NCBI RefSeq assembly: GCF_014281055.1
Contig: NZ_JACRSE010000007.1
Span: forward strand, 1 to 64,000
Reading direction: 5' to 3'
DNA from: Fluviispira vulneris
GTDB lineage: Bacteria > Bdellovibrionota_B > Oligoflexia > Silvanigrellales > Silvanigrellaceae
DNA length: 64,000 bases
Shown: in pieces, positions 41,728-43,823 of the stretch
Position numbering within the stretch: position 1 is the first letter of the stretch
Layout: each line of letters opens with the position of its first letter
Translations under genes and position numbers: made by a program
The notes under the pieces: model-generated
What the model was told of the DNA's origin: nothing
Seen by the model: only the letters and a program-made list of their open reading frames with translations
Databases searched by the model: none

Positions 41728-42039
41728 GTGCTGGTATTGACTCGGAAGGTTGGAGACGTCATAGCCATAGGAGATAATATAAAAATTATCGTTATGGCCA
41801 TTAAAGGAAAACAAGTTCGCTTGGGTATTGAAGCGGACAGATCGACTGTTGTACATAGAGAAGAGGTTTATCAAAAAATCAAGCAAGAGACCAATGCTGC
41901 TGCGCAAAACACTGTCAATTCGACAAGTGTTGCAAAAGAGTTGCTAAAAAGCTCTCCTGAAAATGAATTAAAGTCAAAACCTGAAAAAAAAGGCGTCAGA
42001 ATCATCAAGAGGGCTGCAGATAAAGATAAGAATAAATAG
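41728..42039 (+). CDS. csrA: CsrA post-transcriptional regulator with C-terminal extension
   Basis: The RNA-binding dimer (103 aa) starts with MLVLTRKVGDVIAIGDNI; the Leu4 and Arg44 counterparts (VHREEVYQKIK) are present, so GGA binding should be kept. Residues 60-103 form a Lys/Asn/Ser-rich tail absent from usual 60-70 residue CsrA. It starts at GTG 41728 with a GGAGGG site; the GGA in this site could be a CsrA target for self-control. TATAAT at 41658-41663 is a possible -10 box without a clear -35. CsrA often governs flagellin translation in flagellar systems. Confidence 0.95.
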   Translation: MLVLTRKVGDVIAIGDNIKIIVMAIKGKQVRLGIEADRSTVVHREEVYQKIKQETNAAAQNTVNSTSVAKELLKSSPENELKSKPEKKGVRIIKRAADKDKNK

Positions 42040-42042
42040 GAA

Positions 42043-43392
42043 TTAAACAGATGTGAGAGAGCCTTGAATAATTGAGACATCAGCTCCCATTTGATTTAGT
42101 TTTTCAACGATATTATCGTATTTTCTTTGTATCTCTTGGATATTTGACAATAAAGTCGTTCCACTTCCCACAAGTCCAGCAATGACGAGACACATTCCAG
42201 CACGTATGTCTGTCGGCATTCTAAAATTGCCTCCTTTTAATGGAGTCGGGCCATGAATAATAGCAGAATGCGTGTGATTTTTATGTTTAAATCGACAAGG
42301 AGCTTCTCCTAAACAAGTCGAAAAAAGATTGATATTTGCGCCCATACTATTTAGAAAATGACTGTACCCTAAGCGATCTTCAAAGATTGTTTCGTGTAAA
42401 ATACTTATGCCATCTGCTTGCGTAAATAAAACCATAAATGGTTGTTGCCAATCCGTCATAAACCCAGGATGCACTTCAACTTCTATATGGCTCTGTTTAA
42501 GCCTTCTGCCTTTCGGACTGGAAACAAAAATCCCTTCCGAATTCACTCTAAATTCTGCACCCATCCGTTGAATATAGTTTAAAAAACTGTAGAGCGGATC
42601 GTGGGGAATTTTTTCCAATAAAACGTTTCCGCCCGTAGCCAAAGCGGCACAGGCAAAACTCACTGCTTGATTGCGATCTGGCATAATACGCAATTCACAG
42701 CCTTTTAGTTTATCGACCCCTTGAATAATATAAGTTCTATTTGCATTCATCGTAATGTCTGCACCCATCTTTTGCAGCATTTTTACGAGTTCGATTACCT
42801 CAGGCTCAATGGCCGCATTCTCTATGACTGTTCTACCTTTTGCGAGAGTCGCAGCAATAATTAAATTTTCAGTTGTCATTACACTCGGAAAAGGCAAGAC
42901 GATGTGAGCGCCGCGCAAACCTTTTTCATCCACAGAGATATGATAAAGATTGTCGTCTAACTCAACTTGAGCACCCATTTCAATCAGTCCATTGATGTGA
43001 AAATCAACAGGTCTTTTGCCGATTTTATCTCCACCTAACGCAGCATAAATATAAGCTTTACCAAAGCGATGAAGAAGTGGTCCAACAGCTAAAATAGAAA
43101 TTCGATTTTTTTGGCATATTTCCCTAGATATTTTATTTTTCATGACTTCATTTGCACATAGTCGGATGGTGTGTTCATCGAGATATTCAACTCTCCCACC
43201 TAAATATGCGAATAATTCTTCTGCAATTTTACGTTCGTTCACTGCTGGTGCATTTTTAATAAGAATATGTTCATTCGTTAGAAGAGCAGCGATAATACAT
43301 TTAGTGACTTGATTGCTACTTCCTGCGATAGAAACCTTTCCACCAGAAAGTTTTCTTCCGCCATTAATTCTAATAAGCTGTTCAACAGACAT
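42043..43392 (-). CDS. murA: MurA-family UDP-GlcNAc enolpyruvyl transferase, variant active site
   Basis: A protein of about 449 aa that resembles MurA, which starts peptidoglycan precursor synthesis from UDP-GlcNAc and PEP. The Arg of IGKRPVD (R120 region), TDWQQPF (D305 region) and the Arg of TDIRAG (R397 region) are present. The fosfomycin-target Cys115 is Asp (GGDKIG, residue 122), and the catalytic Lys22 of the GAKN motif is Ser (GSSN, residue 26). It starts at the ATG at 43392 with an AAGGA site; an ATG at 43527 would add 45 residues. Whether it is the cell's main MurA is open. It follows the tRNA-Val pair. Confidence 0.9.
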
Positions 43393-43607: not shown

Positions 43608-43684
43608 TGGTGGGTGCTTAGGGACTCGAACCCCAGACCCTCGCCTTGTAAGGGCGACGCTCTAACCAACTGAGCTAAGCACCC
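43608..43684 (-). tRNA. tRNA-Val (TAC anticodon), copy 2
   Basis: GGGTGCT acceptor stem, D arm TAGCTCAGTTGGTTAGAGC, anticodon loop CTTACAA giving TAC, and encoded CCA. The sequence is identical to the copy at 43747-43823. Confidence 0.97.
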
Positions 43685-43746: not shown

Positions 43747-43823
43747 TGGTGGGTGCTTAGGGACTCGAACCCCAGACCCTCGCCTTGTAAGGGCGACGCT
43801 CTAACCAACTGAGCTAAGCACCC
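43747..43823 (-). tRNA. tRNA-Val (TAC anticodon), copy 1
   Basis: The same 77-base sequence as the next copy, 62 bases away. It starts only 11 bases after the amidohydrolase stop codon, so the tRNAs may be processed from an mRNA that spans amidohydrolase, tRNA-Val, tRNA-Val and murA. The bases around both copies (AAAATGG side) also agree, which indicates a recent tandem duplication. Confidence 0.97.

Follow-up and report, generated by a model that had tools for sequence, protein, structure and literature searches.

The window, a 64,000-nucleotide stretch of Fluviispira vulneris DNA, carries on its minus strand a gene (ORF 42043-43392) for a 449-aa protein, P0001. The ATG at 43392 is preceded by GAAGGAAG, a Shine-Dalgarno-like stretch, and similarity of P0001 to its relatives begins at the same codon. 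A longer in-frame ORF reaches up to 43527, an unlikely start. Two tRNA-Val genes lie directly upstream, as the first-pass annotation had described; the placement of the gene outside the division cluster and beside tRNAs is not informative. On the other side, csrA (window 41728-42039) is convergent with murA, its end lying 3 bases away from the stop of murA. Its product has 103 aa with a charged C-terminal tail, the usual length being 60-70 aa. A csrA match was also found near murA at loci L028 and L030.

Table 1. Features of the murA locus and codons of the residues discussed (positions are those of the window).
Feature	Position	Strand	Remarks	Basis
murA, UDP-N-acetylglucosamine 1-carboxyvinyltransferase, K22-less variant	42043..43392	-		TIGR01072 score, AF2 fold
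Ser26 codon (E. coli Lys22)	43315..43317	-	lost lysine, motif GSSNQVTK	alignment
Lys31 codon (E. coli Pro27)	43300..43302	-	substitute proposed earlier	
Arg54 codon (E. coli Val50)	43231..43233	-	clade-specific Arg, second candidate cation in place of Lys22	
Asp122 codon (E. coli Cys115)	43027..43029	-	site of the general acid, targeted by fosfomycin	
Met172 codon (E. coli Gly164)	42877..42879	-	UDP-pyrophosphate contact	
Insertion with Cys360 and Cys366	42268..42318	-	hallmark of the MurA type of P0001	
Lys424 codon (E. coli Gly398)	42121..42123	-	adjoins Arg423 (Arg397), main candidate for a relocated cation	
tRNA-Val(TAC) tandem pair	43608-43684, 43747-43823	murA strand	directly upstream of murA	

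MurA carries out the first step of cell-wall synthesis. P0001 scored 427.8 bits against the NCBIfam TIGR01072 murA equivalog (cut-off 392.7). The aroA equivalog gave 94.8 bits against a cut-off of 287.25, which places P0001 outside AroA (EPSP synthase). The AF2 model has a mean pLDDT of 92.4 and predicts the two-domain inside-out alpha/beta fold of MurA. It superimposes on MurA 1UAE with TM 0.90/0.96 and an rmsd of 1.6 Å, and among PDB entries it is matched best by MurA structures (TM ≤0.97 by target length); unliganded MurA 1dlg fits less closely (rmsd 2.5 Å) than the liganded structures do. The enolpyruvyl transferase NikO (4fqd) shares the superfamily fold, has 20% identity to P0001 and is a much weaker match than any MurA. 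The gene is under strong purifying selection, with a dN/dS of ~0.03-0.04 within the genus, an approximate value given that synonymous sites are near saturation. The assignment of P0001 as a MurA is strong, and we hold it with high confidence.

Residue numbering follows E. coli MurA. P0001 is ~34% identical to E. coli / E. cloacae MurA (1UAE; 3v4t, the C115D mutant). It has in common with these enzymes the fold and Asn23, Arg91, Arg120, Asp231, Asp305, Arg331, Asp369, Arg371 and Arg397, and Glu329 is kept as well. It differs from them by an insertion near residue 350 and by the replacement of Lys22, Cys115, Gly164 and Gly398. Two of these changes, Lys22 to Ser and Cys115 to Asp, had been called from the sequence in the first-pass annotation and were borne out by the alignment, in which Ser26 of GSSNQVTK corresponds to Lys22 and Asp122 to Cys115. 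Position 115 of P0001 is thus occupied by one of the two acids (Cys or Asp), and the conserved catalytic residue Lys22 is missing. Lys22 was not treated as MurA-defining, given that the equivalog model sets membership and that some replacements of K22 are viable in E. coli (PMC9842644).

MurA copies in the genome and in the class

The 3.6-Mb genome (98.9% complete, in 9 contigs) contains two PF00275 genes, that of P0001 and an aroA adjoining aroC. A search for a second murA, which had been suggested along with the original observation, found none in this 98.9% complete genome, nor in sampled genomes of three families. Both murB and murC score over their cut-offs, and a near-full-length murG-like match reached 229 bits, slightly below its cut-off of 250. 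P0001 is the sole enzyme in the genome able to feed murB, the other PF00275 member being aroA. Cultured F. vulneris is susceptible to carbapenems as well as to penicillin and ampicillin (PMC10645651); therefore peptidoglycan is made. Because P0001 is above the murA cut-off, is the sole MurA and is accompanied by murB and murC, it is, judging by sequence, almost certainly the working MurA of the genome and not an enzyme with a different substrate, as had been considered earlier. The first-pass annotation had also held that a sole murA active on UDP-GlcNAc would be a MurA with shifted residues. The first half stands, in that P0001 is the only murA in the genome, and to the extent that sequence can show, this check favours a MurA.

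The class containing Silvanigrellales was compared across 58 genomes. Families f1, f3 and f10 have a MurA of the P0001 type (62-93% identity) and lack canonical MurA; nearly all relatives checked in these three families have one MurA of this type and none that is canonical. The sister families (f4-f9 and f11-f13) have canonical MurA with 32-38% identity to P0001, so the gene may have been replaced by way of horizontal transfer. A few draft genomes of the class gave no MurA match at all. One genome of the same order (G014; 1.2 Mb, 74% complete) yielded no PF00275 gene, neither murA nor aroA, reflecting either an assembly gap or a reduced genome. The named records in the clade are from Silvanigrellales and uncultured Silvanigrella. 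A contig labelled as a Comamonadaceae MAG (L054) bears a Silvanigrellales-type MurA with 75% identity and is probably mis-binned.

Lys22 and Asp115 across MurA relatives

Clade proteins from the three families (23) were compared with 77 same-type MurAs outside the clade (Actinomycetota, Chloroflexota, Patescibacteria, Chlamydiota, Ignavibacteriota and others) and with 10 canonical MurAs. In the tree the clade is fully supported and has a single origin, nested inside the TDWQQ / CLGxxxCRF MurA type, which is found in Actinomycetota, Ktedonobacterales, Patescibacteria, Chlamydiota and Ignavibacteriota. The stem of the clade is long (1.51 changes per column), and Ktedonobacterales is its sister with weak support (83). 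The type is marked by Trp-Gln-Gln after Asp305 and by an insertion that contains Cys and lies close to residue 350 of the E. coli enzyme; Cys360 and Cys366 are invariant in the same-type alignment and absent from E. coli MurA. Members of the type are ~41-50% identical to P0001 and have in common with it W306, the Cys insertion and Lys27, with Asp or Cys at 115. The clade differs from them at positions 22 and 398, where it has Ser, Ala or Pro and Lys, respectively, and also by Arg50 and Val/Ile296. A Streptomyces MurA row only seeded the scan, and the type was confirmed from fetched Actinomycetota loci. In Actinotignum (G066, C1:314159-316770) two PF00275 genes stand in tandem, and a third elsewhere is a TDWQQ-type MurA.

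Position 22 is Ser in 21 clade proteins, Ala in 1 and Pro in 1, encoded variously by AGC, AGT, TCG, TCC, GCA and CCT. Lys22 is present in 77/77 outside relatives and 10/10 canonical MurAs (87/87). Shared by 23 proteins and encoded in several ways, the loss of Lys22 is lineage-wide and is not due to chance or sequencing error. The general base Asp305 and the PEP/UDP-GlcNAc contacts Asn23, Arg91, Arg120, Arg331, Arg371 and Arg397 are invariant in the 23-protein clade where covered. No independent second loss of Lys22 was seen among the 77 outside relatives, the canonical MurAs sampled numbering only 10, and no report of a natural Lys22-less MurA was found in the literature searched. A Candidatus Liptonbacteria MurA (L089:4001-5278) keeps Lys22 and has Ala for Asn23 (GAKAEAPKL), a residue that is otherwise invariant in the sample.

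Asp115 is commonplace in this MurA type. It occurs in 23/23 clade proteins and 34/77 outside relatives, as well as in 9/9 sister-family canonical MurAs sampled. Asp115 MurAs that are naturally fosfomycin-resistant are known from Mycobacterium tuberculosis, Chlamydia and Borrelia (PMC4790336), and these have Asp at the fosfomycin-alkylated position, like P0001. Unlike P0001, the Asp115 MurAs sampled keep Lys22, and Lys22 is listed as conserved in MurAs compared elsewhere, including a chlamydial Asp115 enzyme (PMC4062475). Met at position 164 was found in 23/23 clade proteins and 7/77 outside relatives.

Candidate replacements for Lys22

A scan of the alignment for residues shared by the whole clade and missing from the outside relatives gave two strong cationic candidates, at positions 398 and 50. 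Position 398 is Lys in 22/22 clade proteins covering the site and Gly in 77/77 outside relatives, and among canonical MurAs it is Gly in 9 and Ala in 1. Position 50 is Arg in 23/23 clade proteins and 0/77 outside. Lys at position 42 was a weaker cationic candidate from the same scan. Positions 22 (Lys) and 398 (Gly), each invariant in 77/77 outside relatives, are changed in every clade member covered. Lys31 of NQVTK, the substitute proposed in the first-pass annotation, occurs in 77/77 Lys22-bearing same-type relatives and was ruled out as a specific replacement.

In a mutational scan of E. coli MurA (PMC9842644), C115 and G164 tolerate no other residue, and G398 ranks with the ten least tolerant sites (the table gives G and T, the text serine), while at K22 the residues F, I, N and T are all accepted in vivo. 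Of the ten least mutable positions, three (115, 164 and 398) are substituted in the clade, as is position 22. Substitutions at 115 and 164 occur outside the clade too; Lys398 and the loss of Lys22 occur only within it. A same-type MurA with Arg-Lys-Tyr (Lys398) was found in 0 of 400 Chloroflexota genomes, a count of genomes and not of carriers of the type. The pattern used also required Trp-Gln-Gln, Asp/Glu at 400 and a set spacing; none of its five matches lay in a MurA.

A proposed rewiring of the PEP pocket

We consider it fairly probable that P0001 is a sole, working MurA whose PEP/phosphate pocket has been rewired, with the cation relocated to Lys424 or possibly Arg54. By moving the enolpyruvyl group of PEP onto UDP-GlcNAc, P0001 would catalyse the first committed step of peptidoglycan synthesis. 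Asp122 would serve as the general acid in place of Cys115 and, because it takes the place of that residue, the enzyme is predicted, from Asp115 only, to escape alkylation by fosfomycin. The phosphonate of fosfomycin is bound by three cations, Lys22, Arg120 and Arg397 (PMC4790336). In P0001 the PEP phosphate would be held by Arg127 and Arg423 (Arg120 and Arg397) together with a relocated cation instead of Lys22, most likely Lys424, which adjoins Arg423, and possibly Arg54. The narrower proposal, that Lys22 is functionally replaced by Lys398 beside Arg397 and the catalytic cation has moved within the fold, is a tentative one. We infer compensation for Lys22 from one evolutionary event. The loss of K22 and the gains of K398 and R50 share one stem branch on which many other sites changed, and this counts against relocation; because all lie on one long stem, the association of 22 with 398 and 50 is a single event.

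The main rival, which we find rather unlikely, is a working MurA in which Lys22 has no substitute. Given a general acid in Asp115 and phosphate binding by Arg120/Arg397, Lys22 would have become dispensable, the site would have drifted, and the changes at 398 and 50 would be unrelated. The S, A and P at position 22 are as expected for a site without a specific role, and since E. coli tolerates K22F/I/N/T in vivo (PMC9842644) a replacement may be needless. The same variability is consistent with relocation and dispensability alike, because a relocated function would also free site 22. Against drift, 34/77 outside relatives and 9/9 sister-family enzymes combine Asp115 with Lys22, so that Asp115 by itself does not release position 22. 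The Lys that all clade members have at position 398, a nearly immutable site, also speaks for a linked change.

It is highly improbable that P0001 belongs to the MurA family but acts on another acceptor, as NikO does, the true murA lying elsewhere or missed in the assembly. The catalytic lysine is lost and the genome is 98.9%, not 100%, complete, but the sampled genomes of the three families yielded no second murA, the murA equivalog cut-off is exceeded, and NikO is far more distant (83 bits vs 244 for MurA). Least probable of all is a catalytically dead or regulatory paralogue, since the loss of Lys22 and the unusual residues at low-tolerance C115, G164 and G398 are set against a sole copy in a peptidoglycan-making lineage, invariance of the other catalytic residues and strong purifying selection. 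Both a different substrate and a dead paralogue are unlikely because no other MurA is present.

In this lineage MurA has probably been rewired and has not taken on a new function. Earlier proposals make Lys22 the MurA general acid or essential to PEP adduct formation (PMC9842644, PMC4062475), and a lineage whose sole MurA lacks Lys22 and has Lys beside Arg397 is a natural experiment on its role. If the proposed relocation to Lys398 is true, an essential enzyme would have a relocated catalytic cation and a rearranged PEP-binding site. For Silvanigrellaceae, a family with members isolated from patients (Pigmentibacter ruber and Fluviispira vulneris), a target intrinsically insensitive to fosfomycin is also predicted.
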